From: Fibrobacterota bacterium
GTDB lineage: Bacteria; Fibrobacterota; Fibrobacteria; UBA11236
DNA: 32,228 nucleotides
NCBI GenBank assembly: GCA_023249635.1
Contig: JAHFCH010000054.1
Coordinates: 1 to 32,228 of the forward strand
Reading direction: 5' to 3'
Numbering within the stretch: position 1 is the stretch's first letter; the number at the start of each line of letters is the position of its first letter. The notes under the pieces were generated by a model. That model made no database searches, was not told where the DNA came from, and saw only the letters and a program-made list of their open reading frames with translations. Positions 17,384 to 32,228 of the stretch are shown here, piece after piece. A program made the translations under genes and the position numbers.

Positions 17384-19450
17384 TCAGAGCTGGCGCAGCA
17401 CTCCGACCCGGCGATAGTCCACTTTCACCGCCCGGTCCTCCGCGATTCCCGGGATCTTCAGCAGGCTTACCGTGGTCTTTACCACGTACGCGCCCGTCGC
17501 CACCGGGTTGCCGTAGTGGCTGCGGCTGTCCCACAGGACCTTCATGGTGCGCGTGTTGCTCTTGGGGGATTTCTCCAGCTTCAGGAACTCATCGGCCCCG
17601 ACCATGAACTGCAGCTTGTTCACGAATTCGCCCATGTTCGAATAGATGTAGATGTCCACGGCGAAGGCGCGGGAAGCCTCCACGGTCAGGCCGACGTAAC
17701 GCAGGGAATCCACGGGTGCCATGGGACCGGGGGCGAGGGTCCATTGATCCGTCGCCTCGGTAGGGGCCGCCCTGAGGCCGGCGGGCGCCACCAGCAGGAA
17801 TTGCGGCTCGTAGGGATTCATGGGCAGGTGGCGGGCGCGGGCATAATCGTTCTGGCCCGCCAGGTTGACCACGGTCAAGATGTCGCGATAGGGGAAGGCC
17901 TTGCGCACCATGTCCAAAGGATTCTCGGGGCTGATGTAGACCACGACGATGCTGTCCCCGGGCAGATGCTGTAGGCGGCCGTCACCGAGGGCGGGCACCA
18001 GGCTTACTTCGCGCTGGAACGTTCCCGAGAGGTAGCCCGATCCCACCGTAAGGGTCAGGGCTTCGCGGTCTTTGCTTTTCAGCGACGAGGGGAGCACTTG
18101 CAGGCTACAGCCCTTGCAGGCCGAGCCGTCCGGCATGGTAAGGCGGGCTTCCAGCTGGGCATCGTCCGCGGTGACGGTGGAGACGGCGGTCCCATCCTTG
18201 AACAGGGCGATGCCGGCCTGGTCGCGGCAGCTGCCCTGCCCCGTACCCGCGGGCAGGGCGGCGGCCGGCGTGCGTAGGATGGTCAGGGCGTAGGGTATCA
18301 CCTTCTCCTTGGATACCGAGAGTCCGCCGGTGGTGTCGATATAGGTGTAGGTGTAGGCCATCTCGAAGCGCGTGGTATCGGCCTGCAGCACCAGATGCTT
18401 GGAGAAGGCGAAACCCTTTTCGTCCATGACAATGGTGCGGTAAGTGGTGTCGCCGGTGGCCAAGGCCGCGCTTTTGGGCTGGGCCGGCACCGATTGCACG
18501 TTCCCGATCACCTGGTTCTGCAGCAGGGTCTCCAATTGCGCGCCGGGCACGTTGATGGCCCAATAGGCGCTCTTGCTGTTGATGCCCGAGTAGCTGTTGA
18601 CCTTGATGTTACCCGTCATTTGCACGATGGTGCTGGGCGCCACCGGGGTGCTGTTCTGGGTATCGAAGAATACGGTGAAGGTGGTGGGCACGCTGGCGCC
18701 GGTGATGAAATCGTTGATGAGGCCTTCGCGGCCATTGTCGGGAGTGGAGGGCGTGCCGTCCGAGAGGAATACGAAGAACTGGTTCGCCTTGTCCGACTTG
18801 GAATCCTTCATGGCCACCTTGCCGGCCTGGAAGCCGAGCGAGATATCGGTGCCATCGCGGGTATTGGAACGGCCCATGCCCGAGTTGTTGCGCGAGGCGG
18901 GCATCTTGGTCACGTATGTCAGGTTGCCGCGCTCGTCATGCTTGAGCAGGGCCTTGAGGGTATCGATGCCCAGCACGCCGTTGGGGAAGACTTTGTTGAG
19001 GGCGGTGAGCGGGACGAAGGAATCGTGTTGCGAGGTATCGCCCGGGAAGGCGCTCTTGAAGAAGGCGTTCTCGCGGTGATCGAAGGAAAGGCGACGGGTG
19101 AAGATTACGAGCCCGACTTCGGCCGAAGGCGCGAACTCCTTGACGTTGTCGAGAAGGGAGGCGACTACATCGAAGCGCGCGACGGCCGGATCGTTTTCGT
19201 CCATGCTGCCGGAATTGTCGATGATGAAGACGATGGACGGGGGCTTGGCGTTGGGATTGGTGATGTGGACGTATTCGGCGCAAAACGGGATTTTCGCGTC
19301 AAGCCAAATCATCTCCTGAGGCACCTGGATGACCCGCTTGTCGTATCGACCAGGACATTCGGAGAAGGCGAAATCACACACTCGTCCCGCAGCGACGGAA
19401 ACCGTCGTGGCGGCTATGACGGCGGCGATTGCCCACGCTTGCCGTTTCAC
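17384..19450 (-). CDS. Secreted VWA-domain protein with C-terminal FlgD-like domain (paralog 1)
   Basis: A 688-residue exported protein starting at GTG 19450, with AGGGGA upstream. It has a signal peptide, then an N-terminal Cys-containing strip (VCDFAFSECPG). A von Willebrand factor A domain follows with a complete MIDAS: DNSGS (Asp78, Ser80, Ser82), Thr201 (GTDISLGF) and Asp231 (FLSDGTPS). The middle is beta-rich with a CKGC pair. The last ~90 residues (DIYIYSNMGEFVNKL ... VLWDSRSHYGNPVATGAYVV) resemble FlgD/Ig-like 'G.yvW dG.d..G..v.tG.Y' modules found at the ends of surface proteins. A metal-dependent adhesion or scaffold role is likely. It is convergent to yejE and paralogous to the next minus-strand gene. 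Confidence 0.86.
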   Translation of the reverse strand: MKRQAWAIAAVIAATTVSVAAGRVCDFAFSECPGRYDKRVIQVPQEMIWLDAKIPFCAEYVHITNPNAKPPSIVFIIDNSGSMDENDPAVARFDVVASLLDNVKEFAPSAEVGLVIFTRRLSFDHRENAFFKSAFPGDTSQHDSFVPLTALNKVFPNGVLGIDTLKALLKHDERGNLTYVTKMPASRNNSGMGRSNTRDGTDISLGFQAGKVAMKDSKSDKANQFFVFLSDGTPSTPDNGREGLINDFITGASVPTTFTVFFDTQNSTPVAPSTIVQMTGNIKVNSYSGINSKSAYWAINVPGAQLETLLQNQVIGNVQSVPAQPKSAALATGDTTYRTIVMDEKGFAFSKHLVLQADTTRFEMAYTYTYIDTTGGLSVSKEKVIPYALTILRTPAAALPAGTGQGSCRDQAGIALFKDGTAVSTVTADDAQLEARLTMPDGSACKGCSLQVLPSSLKSKDREALTLTVGSGYLSGTFQREVSLVPALGDGRLQHLPGDSIVVVYISPENPLDMVRKAFPYRDILTVVNLAGQNDYARARHLPMNPYEPQFLLVAPAGLRAAPTEATDQWTLAPGPMAPVDSLRYVGLTVEASRAFAVDIYIYSNMGEFVNKLQFMVGADEFLKLEKSPKSNTRTMKVLWDSRSHYGNPVATGAYVVKTTVSLLKIPGIAEDRAVKVDYRRVGVLRQL

Positions 19451-19660: not shown

Positions 19661-21721
19661 TTATTGGTCCCGCAGCACGCCCACGATACGGAAATCCGTG
19701 CTCACCGCCTCGTCCTCGGCGATGCCGGGGATCTTCAGCAAGGTGACCGTGGTCTTGAGGATATACGCGCCCGTGCCCGCGGGATTGCCGTCATGGGTGC
19801 GGTTGTCCCACAGCACCTTCAGCCGGCGGGTGTTGTTCTTGACGCCCTTGGCGAGCTTGGCGAACTCGGTCTGATTGACCGTGAAGTCGATCTTGTTCAC
19901 GAACTGGCCCAGGTTGGAGTAGATGGAGATCTGCACCTTGAAGGCACGCGACGCCTCGATGACGTTGCCCACGTAACGCAGCGAGTCGGCCGCGGTGTTG
20001 AGAGAGGGGATGATGGCCCAGTTCTTGGTCTCGCCCGCGATAGGGTTCAGGGTGGTCGGTCCCACCAGCACGAATTGGGTGCCGGACACGGGGTTGGAAA
20101 CCTCGCCGCCGCGCGACCAATCGTTATGCTTGATCACCTGCAGGGCCGTGCTCACGTCGGAATAGGGGAAAGCCTTGCGGATGACGTCCAGGGGGTTGTC
20201 CGGATTCGTATAGGTGATGATGATGCTGTCGGTGGGCAAGTGCTGGAGCTTATGGTCGCCCAGGGCGACGGCCGTGCTGGTCTCACGGCCGAAGTTTCCG
20301 GTCTGGAAGCCGGCGGACGGGGCCAGGATGATGCTCTCCTTGTCCGTGCTCTTGTTCGGTTTCACTTCGACCGAACAACCGTTGCAAACCTCGCCCGTGG
20401 CCAGGGTCAGATGCACATCAAGATCGGTATGATCCGCGGTCACCAGGTTCACCTGGGTGCCCTTGTTGAACAGGGTGATGGCGCCCTGGTCCTGGCAGGC
20501 CGAGGAAAGCCCGGTGGCCAGGGTCGCGCCCGCCACCCGCTTCACGGTCAGCGTATAAGGCACTTCCTTGGTCTTGGTCTTGCCCGAATCGGTATACTGG
20601 TACGTGTACATCAGGTTCACCGTGGTCTGATCGGCGCTAAGCGGTACGCGCTTGGCGAAGGTGAAATTCTTGGCATCCACGCCGGTGCTGTTGTAGGGGG
20701 TTCCCGACACCGTCATGATGGCGCTGACGGGCTTACCCGGGGTATTCGCGAAGATGGGATTGATCACGCTGGTTTGCAGCAGCGTGAGCAATTCCTTGGC
20801 GGGCAGGTCGATGGCCCATTGCTTCGAACGGGCCTGGCCGGTGGAATACCCGTTGGCCTGGATATTCTTGTTCATCTGGCCTAGGGAGTCGATGGACTTG
20901 GGTTCGTTGCCGAAGAAAACGGTGAAGGTGGTGGGGTCGCCGGCGCCGCGGACCCAGTTCCACATGATGGCGTCGCGGCCGTCATCGACCGTCGAGGGCG
21001 TTCCGTCGGAAAGGAAGATAAAGTACTGGTTGTCCTTGGCGTTGTTGTCCGTAGACATGGCCAGCTTGGCGGCGTCGAAGCCGAGGGTGATGTCGGTGCC
21101 CTTGCGGGTATCTGTGAGGGCGTGCTGGGTTGCACTGTCTGAACTGTGGCGCTGTGCCGGCTGCTTGGTTTGGTATTTCAGCGCACCCTTGCTCTCACCC
21201 TGGTCAATAAACGAGAGCAGTTCTTTGAGCGTATCCAGGCCGGTGCGTCCGTTGGTAAACACCTGATCGAGCGCGGTAATGGGAATGAAGGAATCGTGCT
21301 GGGTGGGGTCAGCAGGGAAGGCCGTTTGGAAAAAGGGGTTATCGCGGTGATCGAAGACCAGGCGGCGGCAGAACACTACGATGCCGACCTTGGTTTTCGG
21401 CTGCACCTTGAAGATGGAATCCAGCAGGGTGAGCGTGACCTTGAAGCGCGCTATGTCGGGATCGGTATTGTCCATGCTGCCCGAATTGTCGAGGATGAAC
21501 ACAATGGTAGGAGGCGGGGAATTGGAACCGGTGACGACCTGGACGTTTTCGGAACAGATTGGGACTTGAGGATCAAGCCAGATGACATCGGAAGGCACGG
21601 TGATGGTGCCCGTCGTGAAATTGCCGGGGCATTTGTCGAAGACCAAATTGCAGATTTGCGCCCCGCGGGATATTCCCGCAAATGCGAAAACGGCCATCAG
21701 CCCTGCTTTGAAGCCAGTCAT
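19661..21721 (-). CDS. Secreted VWA-domain protein with C-terminal FlgD-like domain (paralog 2)
   Basis: A 686-residue paralog with the same architecture as 17384-19450. I start at ATG 21721 (MTGFKAGLMAVFAFAG), preceded by GGGGGT; the longer frame back to 21847 lacks a signal peptide at its front. The cysteine strip is ICNLVFDKCPGNF, and the MIDAS is DNSGS (Asp78-Ser82) with GTDITLGF and FLSDGTPS. A CNGC pair occurs mid-protein, and the C-terminal FlgD/Ig-like module reads VLWDNRTHDGNPAGTGAYIL. The two proteins align throughout, for instance FDHR(E/D)N.FF..AFP.D..QHDSF. A 210-bp gap separates them, so they may be co-transcribed or have separate promoters. The pair lies inside what should be a continuous importer operon. 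Confidence 0.86.
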   Translation of the reverse strand: MTGFKAGLMAVFAFAGISRGAQICNLVFDKCPGNFTTGTITVPSDVIWLDPQVPICSENVQVVTGSNSPPPTIVFILDNSGSMDNTDPDIARFKVTLTLLDSIFKVQPKTKVGIVVFCRRLVFDHRDNPFFQTAFPADPTQHDSFIPITALDQVFTNGRTGLDTLKELLSFIDQGESKGALKYQTKQPAQRHSSDSATQHALTDTRKGTDITLGFDAAKLAMSTDNNAKDNQYFIFLSDGTPSTVDDGRDAIMWNWVRGAGDPTTFTVFFGNEPKSIDSLGQMNKNIQANGYSTGQARSKQWAIDLPAKELLTLLQTSVINPIFANTPGKPVSAIMTVSGTPYNSTGVDAKNFTFAKRVPLSADQTTVNLMYTYQYTDSGKTKTKEVPYTLTVKRVAGATLATGLSSACQDQGAITLFNKGTQVNLVTADHTDLDVHLTLATGEVCNGCSVEVKPNKSTDKESIILAPSAGFQTGNFGRETSTAVALGDHKLQHLPTDSIIITYTNPDNPLDVIRKAFPYSDVSTALQVIKHNDWSRGGEVSNPVSGTQFVLVGPTTLNPIAGETKNWAIIPSLNTAADSLRYVGNVIEASRAFKVQISIYSNLGQFVNKIDFTVNQTEFAKLAKGVKNNTRRLKVLWDNRTHDGNPAGTGAYILKTTVTLLKIPGIAEDEAVSTDFRIVGVLRDQ

Positions 21722-21953
21722 GCTACCCCCAGTAATGCGGCAGGTGTCCCCCTTCCCGGCTCGCGTCCAGAATATACCGTCAAAGAGGAATTTAGGCGCG
21801 ACCTCAAAACACGTGAAGGGGACAAACCGCTGCCTAAGTCCTATCAAGTCACGACTATTATAAGGGGTAGGCGGCCTGGATCCGAAGAAATACCCACCCC
21901 AATTCTACCGGAAATTAAGGAAATATAGGCTCATAGATTAGTAAATTTGCGAA
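21722..21953. promoter_or_regulatory. Divergent intergenic region (VWA gene / importer ATPases)
   Basis: This 232-bp, relatively AT-rich spacer separates the minus-strand VWA gene from the plus-strand ATPase gene and should hold both promoters. On the minus strand, TATAAT occurs at 21862-21857; the overlapping TATTAT (21856-21861) faces the ATPases. I found no good -35 partner at 16-18 bp, so these are candidates only. The ATPase start at 21954 has no strong Shine-Dalgarno sequence next to it. Confidence 0.35.
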
Positions 21954-24120: not shown

Positions 24121-24362
24121 TGGCTTCGTACTTCTCCCTCCGTAACCTCCATATTCTCCCGAAGGTAACATTCCTGCTACCTAGGGAAACCGCCCTTCGC
24201 GTGCACTGCCGATGCACGATTTTGGGACCTTGTTTTGGGAAGGATCCCCGCGGGCCCGATGGCGATCGATTATCTTCCCCGCAGCCGCGGCGCGCCGGAC
24301 CGTTCGCCGCGGACCTGACACCACGCAAGTACCGCCTCCGGTATCACAGGAAGGATCTTTCC

Positions 24363-25118
24363 ATGTATCCCCGTATTCCCCGTTTCCGTTTTTCCAATGC
24401 GCTGGGCCTGGCTCTGCTGGCCTCCGCCGCCGCGCATTCGCAAACCGAACCCCTGCGGCTCAACCTGCAGGTGAGCAACATCGACAGGAGCAACTCCTGC
24501 GGCACCCCTTACTTCAGGCCCCAATTCAAGATCACCAATTGGGGCGCGACTCCGGCCCGGCTCAACCAGGCCACGGTACGCTTATTCTTCAACGCCCTGC
24601 CGCAGGCTCCCGTCGAGTTCGTGAACGCCGACTATGCCGTGGTCTCCAACGCCAATGGGTCGATCACGGGAGGCTACGCCACCGCTTATCATTTCGACGC
24701 GCCGCCCTATACGCCGGCCTGCCGCGAATCGCTGTACACGGGTTCGCTGCACGTGGCGCGGCAGCAGCATTTCATCGCCTTCCAGGGCGATGTCACCATC
24801 CCGGCCAACGGAGGCTATGCCACCGTGATCGTGCAGTTCCGCCGCGCAGGCGGTCTCAATCCCTTTGATGTCGATTGCGATGATTGGACGCGCCTGAACG
24901 GCTACAATCCCTGGACCCCGTTCGAAGACGGGCCGTATTACAGCCTGGTGCGCGCCACCGGCGGCAGCCCGGGCGCGGGCTACCCTACCCATCTGATGTG
25001 CGAATACACTTGGACCGCGCCAACCAACGGTGGTCGCGATCTATCCGACCCGTGGGGCGGGGTGGACCCCTGCACGCTTACGCAATCGCAGGATTGCCCC
25101 GTGGGACCTCGGCGCTAG
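24363..25118 (+). CDS. Secreted CBM3-like (cellulose-binding-domain-like) protein
   Basis: A 251-residue protein. Start ATG 24363 has AGGAAGG upstream, and a signal peptide (FSNALGLALLASAAAHS) is followed by RLNLQVSNIDRSNSCGTPYF. FRPQFKITNWGATPARLNQA and TVRLFF fit the CBM3 pattern 'i.P.fkikNtgs.pvdLsdvkvRyyf'. The middle and C-terminus are rich in aromatic and Gly/Asn residues, with several Cys (ACRES, DCDDW, CEYTW, DPCT, DCPVG) that may form disulfides. No catalytic domain is seen. It may be a free-standing binding or adhesion protein. It ends one base from the stop of the OmpA-family gene on the other strand. The 240 bp upstream hold no gene and presumably its promoter. Confidence 0.8.
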   Translation: MYPRIPRFRFSNALGLALLASAAAHSQTEPLRLNLQVSNIDRSNSCGTPYFRPQFKITNWGATPARLNQATVRLFFNALPQAPVEFVNADYAVVSNANGSITGGYATAYHFDAPPYTPACRESLYTGSLHVARQQHFIAFQGDVTIPANGGYATVIVQFRRAGGLNPFDVDCDDWTRLNGYNPWTPFEDGPYYSLVRATGGSPGAGYPTHLMCEYTWTAPTNGGRDLSDPWGGVDPCTLTQSQDCPVGPRR

Positions 25119-28094: not shown

Positions 28095-28547
28095 ATGGAC
28101 GTTTACAAGCTGCTTCACGAGGATCATCGCAAGGTGAAGTCCCTGTTAAAGGAATTGGAAGACACCACCGAACGGGCCGGCAAGACCCGCGAACATCTCA
28201 TCCGCCAGGTGGAGATGGAACTGGAGATCCATTCCGAGGCCGAGGAGAAATTCTTCTACCCGTACCTGCAAACGGCGAAGGAGACCAAGGACCTCGCCTA
28301 CGAAGCGCTGGAAGAACATAAGGTGGTCAAGTCGCTGTTACAGGAACTGATCGCCGAAGCCAAGGGAACCGCGGAGTGGACGGCAAAATGTTCGGTGCTC
28401 ATCGAGAATGTCGAACACCATATCGAGGAAGAAGAGGGCGAGCTTTTCCCCAAAGCGCGCAAGGTGCTCTCCAAGGAAGAAGCCGAGTCCATCGGCGAGG
28501 AGATCGAGGACTATAAGGAACAGCACACCGGCGTCGGCGCGGGCTGA
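28095..28547 (+). CDS. Hemerythrin HHE-domain protein
   Basis: A 150-residue soluble four-helix protein with a strong ribosome site (CAGGAGG). Candidate di-iron ligands appear in the hemerythrin order: His8/His11 (LLHEDHRKV), His46 and Glu50 (EIHSEAEEKFFYP), His75 (LEEHKVVKSLL), and His108/His109 with Glu residues (VEHHIEEEEGELFP). The 'E.H...Ee..fyP' and 'veHHi..EE.elFP' phrases are typical of bacterial HHE proteins that bind O2 or NO or take part in iron-centre repair and oxidative stress. Length matches single-domain members. It is separated from the FAH/zinc-ribbon pair by 54 bp containing a palindrome, so it may have its own control. Confidence 0.94.
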   Translation: MDVYKLLHEDHRKVKSLLKELEDTTERAGKTREHLIRQVEMELEIHSEAEEKFFYPYLQTAKETKDLAYEALEEHKVVKSLLQELIAEAKGTAEWTAKCSVLIENVEHHIEEEEGELFPKARKVLSKEEAESIGEEIEDYKEQHTGVGAG

Positions 28548-28569: not shown

Positions 28570-29712
28570 TCAGGGGAGCGGGATGGGATGCCATCCCGCC
28601 GTCCACACCATCACCATGAATCCCAGCAAGAAGGCCGGCGCCATCCACCAGGCCTCGCGGATCCATTTCCCTACCGAACGCATTTCCGGGAAGGACGCGG
28701 CAAGGGCCACTCCCGCCGAAGATCCGAACCACAACAGCGATCCGCCGAAGCCCACCGCGTATGCGAGCAAACCCCAATCATAGCCGCCCTGCCGCAAAGC
28801 CAGGCGGGTAAGCGGGATATTGTCGAACACGGCGGAGACGAATCCCAATCCCAAAGTCGTATGCCATGAGGCGGCCGGGAGGCTCTCGACGGGCATGAGC
28901 GAAGCCATCAGCACCAAGGCGCATAGGAAGACCGCGCCGCGGGCCGCTTCCGGCAGGGCTTTCGCCGGCAAGCGCACGAAAGGCATCCACAGGAGAACCG
29001 CGATCCAGACTCCGGCGCCGGGCAGGTCCCAGGCCAGATTCGCGAGCAAGGCACCGGCCAGCATGGAGGCAACGACAGCGGCGCGCTTGGGATCGAGTCG
29101 GGCGCCGGGCGCGGGGTCGGCGGCAATCGGCTGGTGACGATGCTGGGCGAGCGCGGCCGGAATCCCGCATCCGATCAAAGCGATTCCGGATCCTATGAAG
29201 GCCGTGAGCGGCTTGGCGGCGGGGACGCCCGCGATCCAAAGCATGGTGGTGGTGGTATCGCCCAGCACGCTTCCCGCCCCACCCGCATTGCTGGCTGCCA
29301 CCAAGGCGGCAAGGTAGCCTACGCGCACCCGTCCCCGGAATACCGAGGCCGCCACGGTACCGCCCACCAGGGCCGCGGCGATATTGTCCAGGCAGGTGGA
29401 AATCGCGAATACGAAAACCAGCAGGCAGAAAGGCCCCTTCCAATCGTCAGGCAAGAAGCGCGGCATCAGGCCCGGAATCCCGGAGTCGGAGAAGTGCCGG
29501 GCCAATACGGCAAACCCCAGCAGCAAGGCCGCGAGGTTGGCGAGCAGGCGGGCTTCCTCGCGCAGGTGCGGGACCAGGGGGAATCCCGCGAAGCCTTTCC
29601 AGGTAAGCAGAAAAGCCAGACCGGTCAGCGCGATGGCCAGGGTATGCCGGTGGAAAACCGCGATGCCGGCGAGCGTCAGGCCGAAGAGGATGAATTCGAG
29701 AGGGATGCCCAT
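28570..29712 (-). CDS. Ion-transporter-superfamily permease (NhaD/ArsB/citrate type)
   Basis: A 380-residue protein with about ten or eleven hydrophobic segments. Two inverted-repeat hallmarks of the ion-transporter superfamily are seen: a re-entrant region with TCLDNIAAALVGGTVAASVF then ASNAGGAGSVLGDTTTTMLW, and a second half with SAVFDNIPLTRLAL and GFGGSLLWFGSSAGVAL. The paired 'DN(I)' motifs are typical of Na+/H+ antiporter NhaD and of citrate/arsenite-type carriers. At 380 residues it is somewhat shorter than most. The substrate cannot be read from sequence. It lies 53 bp downstream of the transferase-deacetylase gene on the same strand and may be co-transcribed with it. Confidence 0.85.
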   Translation of the reverse strand: MGIPLEFILFGLTLAGIAVFHRHTLAIALTGLAFLLTWKGFAGFPLVPHLREEARLLANLAALLLGFAVLARHFSDSGIPGLMPRFLPDDWKGPFCLLVFVFAISTCLDNIAAALVGGTVAASVFRGRVRVGYLAALVAASNAGGAGSVLGDTTTTMLWIAGVPAAKPLTAFIGSGIALIGCGIPAALAQHRHQPIAADPAPGARLDPKRAAVVASMLAGALLANLAWDLPGAGVWIAVLLWMPFVRLPAKALPEAARGAVFLCALVLMASLMPVESLPAASWHTTLGLGFVSAVFDNIPLTRLALRQGGYDWGLLAYAVGFGGSLLWFGSSAGVALAASFPEMRSVGKWIREAWWMAPAFLLGFMVMVWTAGWHPIPLP

Positions 29713-29765: not shown

Positions 29766-31565
29766 TCAGGCGGCGAGCAATCCCTCGGGAGAGGTGAGGA
29801 TGGGCAGGGAGGGACGGGAGATTTCGGCGCCGGAGACGGTGGGCACCGGGCGGGCAAAGCGCGCGTTGACGGGATTGACCGCCAGCATGGCCTTGACGCT
29901 TTCGCTTTCCAGGTTCTCCTTCACCGAAGTGAAGCGATGATCGCCGAGCAGCCGATCCAGCTTCCAGGCGGTGGTATCCAGGTTTACGTAGTGCTGGAAC
30001 GATTCCAGTACCCCGGCGGACACGCGCTGTTGATCGGTATCGAGTTCCCAGGGATGGAAATACAGCATGGCGGAGCGACCCTGACGGTTCTGGCTCTTGA
30101 TGTACAGGTCCGTCGCCGCATGGGGGTAAAGGCGCAGGTAGCCGCCGCCCGCGATGGGCAGGGCCTTGCCGCCCACTTCGGCGATGGACATGGGAATCTC
30201 GCGGATGGATTTGCCGCCGCCGAGTTCGATCACGTGGGGCATGCGGTTGGGGTAATCGGGAATGCCGTAGCGCTTGCGCTTGACCGGGAAGATGCTGGAA
30301 TCGTACTGGATGCCGTAGCGGGCCATGATCTCGAGGGCCCACAGGGTCGATTCCACGATGCTGAAGTTGGAGGCGCGATGGCCCACCACCTTCTGGCTGG
30401 TGAAACGGGCCAGCGAGTTCAGCGACTTGTCCAGGTCCTTCTCGAACTGGTACGGGCTCATGGCGGTGACCAGCTCATGGCTATGGCCATGGGTGCCGAT
30501 CTCGTGCCCGGCGATGTCTATCATACGCACCACTTCCGGGAAGCGGTCGGCCACGTACCCGAGTACGAAGAAGGTCGCCTTCGCGTTATGGGCGGCGAGC
30601 AACTCGAGGATGCGATGGACGTTCTCGACCACGCGGGTCTTGGAACCGTCCCAGGCCGAGCGGGGGATGCCGAGGTTGTGGGCATGGAACCAGCATTCGA
30701 CGTCGATGGTGAAAAAGTTCGCGACGGCGGAAGCCTTGGGGGCGGGGACCGGTGCCGGCGTAGAGGAAATCGGGCGGCTCTGGGCCAACACCATGGTGGG
30801 ATGCAGGCGGCCGCGATGGCGCACCATGGCCATGCGGGGCTTGGCCAAGGTCTCGGGAGTCAGTTCGGCAAGCGCGTTCGCCACCTTGGCTTCGGTGAGC
30901 GGGCCGCGTTGTACCAGATAGCGAAGGGTGTTGAAGCAGATCCACATTTCCATGCGCAGCCAGGCGGAGAGGCTGATCATGGAGGAGCGGTACGCCAAGT
31001 CGAAATGGGTTTTGCGGGCCACGCTGTCCAGGGAGTCGTCGTAGCCGAGGACGATTTGCGAGAGGCCGGTGATGCCGGGCTTCACGTGGCGGGTGCGCTC
31101 ACGGTAGAGCGGGATTTCCCGGAAGTACTTGACGGTGAAGTGCGGGCGCTCGGGGCGCGGTCCGATGAAGCTCATATCGCCCTTGAGCACGCTCCAGAAT
31201 TGGGGCAGCTCGTCGAGATGGCTCGAGCGCAGGAACGCGCCGATACGGGTCACGCGCGGGTCGCCACCCTTGTTGAACAGCTGCGGGCCGTTCTTTTCGG
31301 CGTCGCTGCGCATGGTGCGGAACTTCGCGATGGTGAACGGACGGCCGCCCACGTCGGTCACGCGGCGCGAATCGCCCAAGCGGCCGAGGGTATTGCGGGT
31401 GTCGAGGCCCACGCGGGTTTGGCGATACAAGGCCGGGCCCTTCGACTCGAGCTTGATGAGCAGAGCGAGGATGGGGTAGGCGACTACGTACAGGGTGGTG
31501 CCGACCAGGCCCACCGCGATGTCCAGGGTCCTCTTGAAGGCCTGTACTTGCTTGTTCGTTCTCAT
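29766..31565 (-). CDS. Fusion: polyprenyl-phosphate sugar-1-phosphate transferase + polysaccharide deacetylase
   Basis: A single continuous frame of 599 residues from ATG 31565, picked because AGGGAG lies 7 nt upstream; ATG 31571 and a longer frame back to 31757 are alternatives. Residues ~8-215 are a bacterial sugar transferase (WcaJ/EpsL-type catalytic half): KRTLDIAVGL, a membrane helix, FTIAKFRTMRSDAE, SHLDELPQFWSVLKGDMSFI, GPRPERP and VKPGITGLSQ. A Pro/Ala linker spans about 265-280. Residues ~284-545 are a NodB-like deacetylase with FTIDVECWFH (Asp288), GHEIGTHGHSHE (His359/His363) and the REIPMS, GGGYLRLYP and YFHPWELD blocks of the PEP-CTERM/XrtA-associated subfamily. It should start and modify an exopolysaccharide at the inner membrane. 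No other glycosyltransferase is in view. Confidence 0.93.
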   Translation of the reverse strand: MRTNKQVQAFKRTLDIAVGLVGTTLYVVAYPILALLIKLESKGPALYRQTRVGLDTRNTLGRLGDSRRVTDVGGRPFTIAKFRTMRSDAEKNGPQLFNKGGDPRVTRIGAFLRSSHLDELPQFWSVLKGDMSFIGPRPERPHFTVKYFREIPLYRERTRHVKPGITGLSQIVLGYDDSLDSVARKTHFDLAYRSSMISLSAWLRMEMWICFNTLRYLVQRGPLTEAKVANALAELTPETLAKPRMAMVRHRGRLHPTMVLAQSRPISSTPAPVPAPKASAVANFFTIDVECWFHAHNLGIPRSAWDGSKTRVVENVHRILELLAAHNAKATFFVLGYVADRFPEVVRMIDIAGHEIGTHGHSHELVTAMSPYQFEKDLDKSLNSLARFTSQKVVGHRASNFSIVESTLWALEIMARYGIQYDSSIFPVKRKRYGIPDYPNRMPHVIELGGGKSIREIPMSIAEVGGKALPIAGGGYLRLYPHAATDLYIKSQNRQGRSAMLYFHPWELDTDQQRVSAGVLESFQHYVNLDTTAWKLDRLLGDHRFTSVKENLESESVKAMLAVNPVNARFARPVPTVSGAEISRPSLPILTSPEGLLAA

Positions 31566-31668
31566 GGTCATGCTCCCTACGTCAGCTTGAGAGTCCCGCT
31601 CTCCGTGCGATGTGTCCGACATCGCCGCTGACGTGAGATCAAATTCACATTTTTGCATCCGCGTGTCC

Positions 31669-31682
31669 GTGATGGCGCTCAC
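31669..31682. promoter_or_regulatory. GTGA-N6-TCAC palindrome (CRP/FNR-like)
   Basis: GTGATGGCGCTCAC, with flanking C and G that extend the symmetry, matches the core of the CRP/FNR-family site (GTGA-N6-TCAC). It is about 104 bp upstream of the chosen start of the transferase-deacetylase gene. On its own such a match is expected about once in every couple of windows this size. Confidence 0.4.
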
Positions 31683-31900
31683 GCGCGGCAGCAGCAGCCG
31701 GCGCGTGTTCTTCTTGAAGGATGGATAGCCGAGGTTTCCGAACCGTACCAGTTCCATGTCGTTCCGCCTTTTTTGTCCGTGCGCTTCCGGTAAATACCCC
31801 GGAAATGTTTGGCTGATGCGCTTGGTTGGGCTTTAGACGAAGCATCGAAGGAGGGGGGTAACCGCCGTCACACCCTTCGGGGGATCTCCGCGCTCCAATG

Positions 31901-32084: not shown

Positions 32085-32228
32085 TTAACAGAAAGGCCAG
32101 AGCGGGCAGATCTCCTTGGCCTTGACGAAGGCGGCTTCGCGAATGAGAACGAGACCGGGGAGGCTCGCGCGGGCGTTGGGGATGAGCTTGTTCTCTTCCA
32201 CCATCTTGTTTACCAAGCGGGACAGGTT
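32085..32228 (-). CDS. C-terminal end of an unidentified gene (partial)
   Basis: The minus strand is open from the window edge to a TAA at 32085-32087, giving the last 47 residues of a protein. The fragment contains LSRLVNKMVEENKLIP, a helical segment with ordinary coding-like composition, then ASLPGLVLIREAAFVKAKEI, and ends in CPLWPFC with two Cys. I do not recognise a family. Its composition is more protein-like than the surrounding non-coding DNA. It is upstream of, and in the same direction as, the exopolysaccharide fusion gene. Confidence 0.5.
   Translation of the reverse strand, partial: NLSRLVNKMVEENKLIPNARASLPGLVLIREAAFVKAKEICPLWPFC

Follow-up and report, generated by a model that had tools for sequence, protein, structure and literature searches.

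The window analyzed here (the whole stretch of 32,228 nucleotides) carries, on the minus strand at 29766..31565, a gene encoding a 599-aa protein in which a monotopic phosphoglycosyl transferase (PGT) core is fused to an XrtA-type CE4 polysaccharide deacetylase, as delimited by its open frame and its Pfam and NCBIfam domains. By its domain architecture the protein belongs to a known kind of enzyme, the bifunctional monotopic PGT, with a new partner, the deacetylase; it is restricted to one lineage and duplicated into several copies, most of which bear an additional STAS-like domain, and a relic form exists in a sister genus. We propose, with a probability of roughly 0.6, that it acts as a bifunctional PGT of the cytoplasmic face, which would prime the lipid carrier with an N-acetylamino sugar and then N-deacetylate that sugar, feeding the glycan of an exosortase/PEP-CTERM system.

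We know of no established site of action for an XrtA-associated deacetylase. Fusion to a priming transferase would place such an enzyme at the cytoplasmic face, probably working at the first sugar or at a very early stage, and suggests that a surface glycan has its first sugar trimmed intracellularly, right after attachment. If this is true, a single enzyme would turn a UDP-N-acetylamino sugar and undecaprenyl phosphate into a lipid-linked free amino sugar.

Domain architecture and membrane side

An earlier sequence-only reading had described complete signatures of both halves within one uninterrupted frame, and Bac_transf, Polysacc_deac_1 and DUF3473 indeed all score far above their Pfam cut-offs. 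Judged by its sequence, the PGT half is a small monotopic core with one hydrophobic helix. Its Bac_transf domain (PF02397; residues 11–217, 30915..31535, minus strand; 166 bits) aligns with the PglC structures 8e37 and 8g1n (profile E-value 1.5e-23), including the catalytic LDELPQ motif. A hydropathy scan and the PglC alignment locate the re-entrant membrane helix at residues 14–39 (31449..31526, minus strand), and the catalytic Asp-Glu pair, D118 and E119 within HLDELPQ (31209..31214, minus strand), aligns with that of PglC and is invariant in 20 of 20 fusions. The Pfam gathering score, the single re-entrant helix and the Asp-Glu pair place this half among the monotopic PGTs; it does not reach the cut-offs of the models for full-length EPS PGTs, TIGR03025 (210.7 bits, cut-off 295.55) and TIGR03013 (177.6 bits, cut-off 393.35).

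The deacetylase half passes the NCBIfam model TIGR03006, 'XrtA system polysaccharide deacetylase', which includes DUF3473 (29916..30716, minus strand; 283.9 bits against a cut-off of 276.2). Polysacc_deac_1 covers residues 313–410 of the 599-aa numbering (64 bits, Pfam), and the DUF3473 domain residues 423–551 (29913..30299, minus strand; 139 bits, Pfam), with His504 in the motif YFHPWELD. CE4 motif 1, D288-V-E290 (30696..30704, minus strand), presumably holds the catalytic base and a metal ligand position, and motif 2, H359-x3-H363 (30477..30491, minus strand), contributes what we take, from knowledge of the CE4 family, to be metal ligands. Both motifs, and with them the whole set of metal and catalytic residues (D288, E290, H359, H363, R397 and H504), are invariant in all 20 fusions.

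Structure prediction, which had been suggested as a way to judge domain packing and membrane side, gave a reliable model for one half of the protein. AlphaFold models the deacetylase confidently (pLDDT mostly >90), and CE4 deacetylases, ArnD (8t0j) among them, head the Foldseek matches to it; the PGT half stays below a pLDDT of 50 over most of residues 41–196 because the alignment is shallow.

Residues 14–39 are the sole hydrophobic segment of the entire protein, and the hydropathy scan finds a single such region in each of the 20 fusions. This agrees with the earlier suggestion that both active sites, being on one polypeptide, work on one side of the membrane: as a single re-entrant helix is the only membrane segment of the protein, both catalytic domains should face the cytoplasm. 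A periplasmic deacetylase with an overlooked membrane segment is rejected as far as the hydropathy scan reaches. The DUF3473/TIGR03006 deacetylase family as a whole looks cytosolic, as an N-terminal hydrophobic segment is missing from all 58 stand-alone relatives in a simple hydropathy scan, which an unusual export signal would escape, and some begin right at the catalytic motif, e.g., MRNALTVDVEDYFQV.

The order of steps, priming followed by deacetylation on the same side, had been called unusual. This does not hold, given the lack of signal peptides among the 58 relatives, the fusion of the same deacetylase family to GT2 glycosyltransferases elsewhere, and the known or proposed precedents for cytosolic deacylation of lipid-linked sugars in HfsH, ArnD and GpgD. 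HfsE of the Caulobacter holdfast is itself a PGT. It is paired with the CE4 deacetylase HfsH, which is reported to be cytosolic and has a similar role before export, but there the two are separate proteins and no exosortase link is claimed (PMC5362036). ArnD acts on an undecaprenyl-phosphate-linked sugar prior to translocation, removing a formyl group (PMC12748117), and in the GpgS/GpgD pair an N-acylated sugar is placed on a lipid and the acyl group is removed next (PMC12713373). ArnC/ArnD and GpgS/GpgD thus follow the same two-step logic, but with different, unfused transferases; ArnD shares the CE4 fold, whereas GpgD comes from another deacetylase family.

Paralogues, distribution and a sister-genus relic

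Four fusions on four contigs are present in the source genome, the three besides the window copy being 701–743 aa long, and 20 intact fusions occur in six genomes of the same genus, plus contig-end pieces resembling two more. The nearest named records to this lineage are the metagenome assemblies 'Fibrobacteres bacterium RYN_348' and 'Fibrobacteria bacterium Chersky_265'. The fusions fall into four paralogous clades (A–D), each with its own conserved neighborhood; the window copy belongs to clade A. No key active-site residue of either half varies among the 20 intact proteins. Pairwise dN/dS is about 0.10–0.26 in both domains (four comparisons each) and 0.4–0.6 in the linker, rough values with dS near 1, and by this measure both domains are under purifying selection and the linker is far less constrained.

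In the window copy the linker (residues 223–282; 30720..30899, minus strand) has no STAS-like domain. In clades B, C and D, about 85 extra residues resembling STAS stand between the PGT and the deacetylase in 15 of 15 members (L103, L104, L105 and 12 further loci; for example, L105:10239-10550). All 15 match Pfam STAS and STAS_2, with the best score under the gathering cut-off, and weak PDB matches of the domain profile include several anti-sigma factor antagonists. Glu or Asp would here replace the phosphorylated serine of SpoIIAA-type proteins (FDLEDLG). Neither the window copy nor any of its four full-length orthologues has the domain, and clade A retains only a short stretch similar to its first strand.

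Bifunctional PGTs (Bi-PGTs) are described as carrying a functional domain at one terminus of a monotopic PGT core (PMC10942596, citing O'Toole et al. 2021). The present protein likewise combines a functional domain and such a core in one polypeptide; it differs in that the partner is an XrtA-type CE4/DUF3473 deacetylase, mostly with the STAS-like domain in between, a PGT pairing for which no report was found in literature that we covered incompletely. Stand-alone TIGR03006 proteins share the domain, the motifs and the lack of a signal peptide, but are separate proteins, normally of about 275–330 aa and encoded by their own gene, as the sequence-only reading had noted.

That reading also did not recognize the fusion as a standard architecture, and its impression is borne out by a survey of about 1,140 other genomes, which gave only separate deacetylases or deacetylase–GT2 fusions. 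The survey covered Fibrobacterota, Pseudomonadota, Planctomycetota and Spirochaetota, together with 40 genomes reached via loci; a record named Bacteroidales (L041, JAIXLE010000082.1) yielded the Planctomycetota sample again and is probably mislabelled. Across the 168 Fibrobacterota genomes, a TIGR03006 scan detected PGT fusions in this genus only, other strong matches being mostly 280–330 aa long. The deacetylase is present in 76 of 398 Pseudomonadota genomes, where nothing points to a PGT fusion, in 107 of 343 Planctomycetota and in 4 of 198 Spirochaetota; the forty additional genomes gave the same picture, again with no PGT fusion. Candidates were offered by long Planctomycetota frames of up to 940 aa, but a PGT in the same frame was seen in 0 of 32 cases inspected in all, these being either fused to a GT2 or extended upstream through high GC content; the idea that the PGT fusion is common in other phyla was dropped. 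A 674-aa frame in a Pseudomonadota genome (G501) is likewise a spurious extension.

The deacetylase–GT2 fusions, of about 600 aa, occur in Planctomycetota, a Spirochaetaceae MAG and the genome G003 (L111:8817-10586, L174, L175, L176, L177, L178, L179, L180, L181, L087, L204 and L205). They also join the DUF3473 deacetylase family to a glycan-synthesis enzyme, but have the deacetylase at the N-terminus, a GT2 instead of a PGT as the partner, and a separate deacetylase clade, and seemingly form a family of their own. Separate PGT and deacetylase genes adjoin in one Planctomycetota locus (L209) and lie about 1 kb apart in another (L183) and about 2 kb apart in Singulisphaera (L054/L062), a proximity that supports a functional pair.

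A sister genus with smaller genomes (G008) encodes a 441-aa deacetylase (L116:9568-10893, contig C6) that starts with a remnant of the PGT membrane helix, the catalytic PGT core being gone. Its N-terminal helix scores on average 71 against the fusion helices, whereas 275 unrelated hydrophobic segments drawn from these loci reach 31 at most; the only score above 31 in this control was that of L126, itself a fusion. None of 1000 class-preserving shuffles reached the helix score. At the N-terminus of the G007 deacetylase, likeness to the fusion helix is not significant. In the deacetylase tree, the G008 and G007 proteins nest within the fusion clade, beside clade D. Since sister-genus deacetylases lie inside the fusion clade, the fusion and its duplications appear to predate the split of the two genera, and the PGT core appears to have been deleted later in the sister genus, with the membrane anchor and the deacetylase retained. 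The nested position of the G008 protein also indicates that tethering at the membrane side was kept. Support at the base of the PGT tree is weak (0.56), and the tree is compatible with either an ancestral or a derived position of the free-standing PGT found in a genome of the same order (G010).

Proposed reaction, pathway and alternative roles

We hypothesize that the Bi-PGT would be seated in the inner leaflet via its re-entrant helix, with both catalytic domains toward the cytoplasm. The PGT half would use a UDP-sugar to load undecaprenyl phosphate with an N-acetylamino-sugar 1-phosphate, and the CE4 half would then remove the N-acetyl group from the lipid-linked sugar (or a short lipid-linked glycan) before flipping, so that the first sugar ends up with a free amine. 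Most likely, this product would be used for the surface glycan belonging to the XrtA/PEP-CTERM exosortase system. Priming and deacetylation are plausibly coupled, as had been proposed earlier; action of both domains on the same molecule does not follow from the fusion alone, and the genomic context gives no pathway. We infer the reaction order, the substrate and its acetylated sugar along with this coupling and the exosortase link, the last from co-occurrence and family membership.

Each of the six genus genomes has one exosortase, away from the fusions, together with PEP-CTERM proteins (2–15 matches) and FemAB-family proteins; in the source genome, the exosortase matches PF09721 with an E-value of 2.7e-51 and PEP-CTERM matches number 9. 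The neighbors of the exosortase are relatives of PrsT, a tyrosine autokinase, PrsK and PrsR, assigned by family matches, some of them below the cut-offs. Strong TIGR03006 matches in five of the six genomes are solely the fusions or their pieces at contig edges; a single additional strong match, in G003, is fused to GT2 and located beside a FemAB gene. In the source genome a FemAB-family protein is encoded in a conserved cluster (L186:5894-14708, contig C282) with relatives of decaprenyl-phosphate phosphoribosyltransferase and DprE1/DprE2 and an L-2-hydroxyglutarate oxidase; a WecB-type epimerase gene is nearby.

It is also conceivable, though on balance rather unlikely, that the deacetylase half works outside the exosortase system, on a general surface glycan or lipid, and that the two co-occur by lineage only. 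This concerns the pathway and is compatible with the chemistry proposed above. The fusion genes are distant from the exosortase and the FemAB cluster, and none of the inspected fusion loci lies in a glycan gene cluster or in the exosortase or FemAB cluster, their conserved neighbors being unrelated and differing by paralogue; the location in an exosortase/EPS cluster that is typical of, although not required for, TIGR03006 is thus not seen here. An exosortase or glycosyltransferase beyond the right edge of the window copy, which the sequence-only reading had advised looking for, did not turn up in the orthologous loci, the exosortase being on another contig, and the sister genus retains the deacetylase with no exosortase match and no PEP-CTERM match. 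However, TIGR03006, whose cut-off the window copy exceeds, carries the XrtA system in its name, exosortase, PEP-CTERM and FemAB proteins accompany the fusion in all six genomes bearing it, and the truncated deacetylase of G008 is encoded about 2 kb from a FemAB gene.

The fusion might alternatively serve to tether the deacetylase to the assembly site, where it would act later, on the growing lipid-linked oligosaccharide. The retention of the membrane helix and the deacetylase in G008 after loss of the PGT core, that is, of tethering alone, fits such a role, as do HfsH, thought to deacetylate subunits of a growing polymer (PMC5362036), and the deacetylase–GT2 fusions, in which enzymes of later steps are seen as partners of the family. 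We nevertheless consider this improbable: strong purifying selection acts on the PGT half, and its key residues are intact in 20 of 20 fusions, which argues that it is more than an anchor.

The proposed priming and deacetylation of the first sugar may be compared with the VimE/VimA linking-sugar pathway of Porphyromonas, where a CE4 deacetylase is proposed to free an amine for aminoacylation by a FemAB-related enzyme (PMC7468200). Proteins would be joined there to the aminoacylated linking sugar, and FemAB, deacetylase and exosortase genes have been noted together; the attachment target of exosortases is described as an unidentified compound (PMC7468200). VimE and VimA differ from the present case in being separate proteins that belong to type IX secretion and involve no PGT fusion. 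We speculate, as a distinctly doubtful extension, that the first sugar could be deacetylated by its own priming enzyme and aminoacylated by a FemAB-like protein, its amine being the exosortase acceptor, with the STAS paralogues as regulated versions for different glycans.

Reading frame, neighboring genes and upstream DNA

The stop codon of the fusion frame is at 29766-29768, with no internal stops on the minus strand. An assembly chimera or a missed frameshift joining two adjacent genes, conceivable in a fragmented assembly (341 contigs) with the gene close to a contig end, is refuted by the presence of the fusion in independent assemblies of six same-genus genomes and in four paralogous clades. 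The fusion is therefore genuine, and no such missed stop or frameshift, which the sequence-only reading had named as grounds for withdrawing it, was found in this comparison.

A gene for an NhaD-like membrane protein (28570..29712, minus strand) lies 53 bp downstream of the fusion and holds the same place in the clade-A loci L038, L106, L108 and L128; it was not seen in L107. Elsewhere in the window, 28095-28547 encodes a protein with a hemerythrin domain, similar to the PA2171 family (128.8 bits against a cut-off of 190), 24201-25118 gives a CBM_3 match below threshold, and two adjacent large proteins with von Willebrand A domains are encoded at 17384-19450 and 19661-21847 (minus strand).

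The longest version of the fusion frame starts at ATG 31757 (663 aa) and the conserved one at ATG 31565 (599 aa), with the Met of which homologues begin to align. The former was dropped as a start, the stretch upstream of 31565 having no protein-level conservation. Upstream of the fusion, a palindrome CGTGA-N6-TCACG (31668-31683) is mostly retained in clade-A orthologues, even in one with a different reading frame there, and is a possible operator site; conservation upstream of 31565 is in part that of this DNA palindrome and so does not support ATG 31757. Farther upstream, GGTTACCCC ... CGTCTAAAG (31831-31863, minus strand) recurs in four of the five clade-A loci and resembles a promoter for an ECF sigma factor, as predicted from its sequence. 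The window closes with the 3′ end (32085-32228) of a gene broken off by the contig end, which in clade-A loci lies upstream of the fusion on the same strand and encodes a strongly conserved 106-aa protein with no family assigned, ending in ...KEICPLWPFC.
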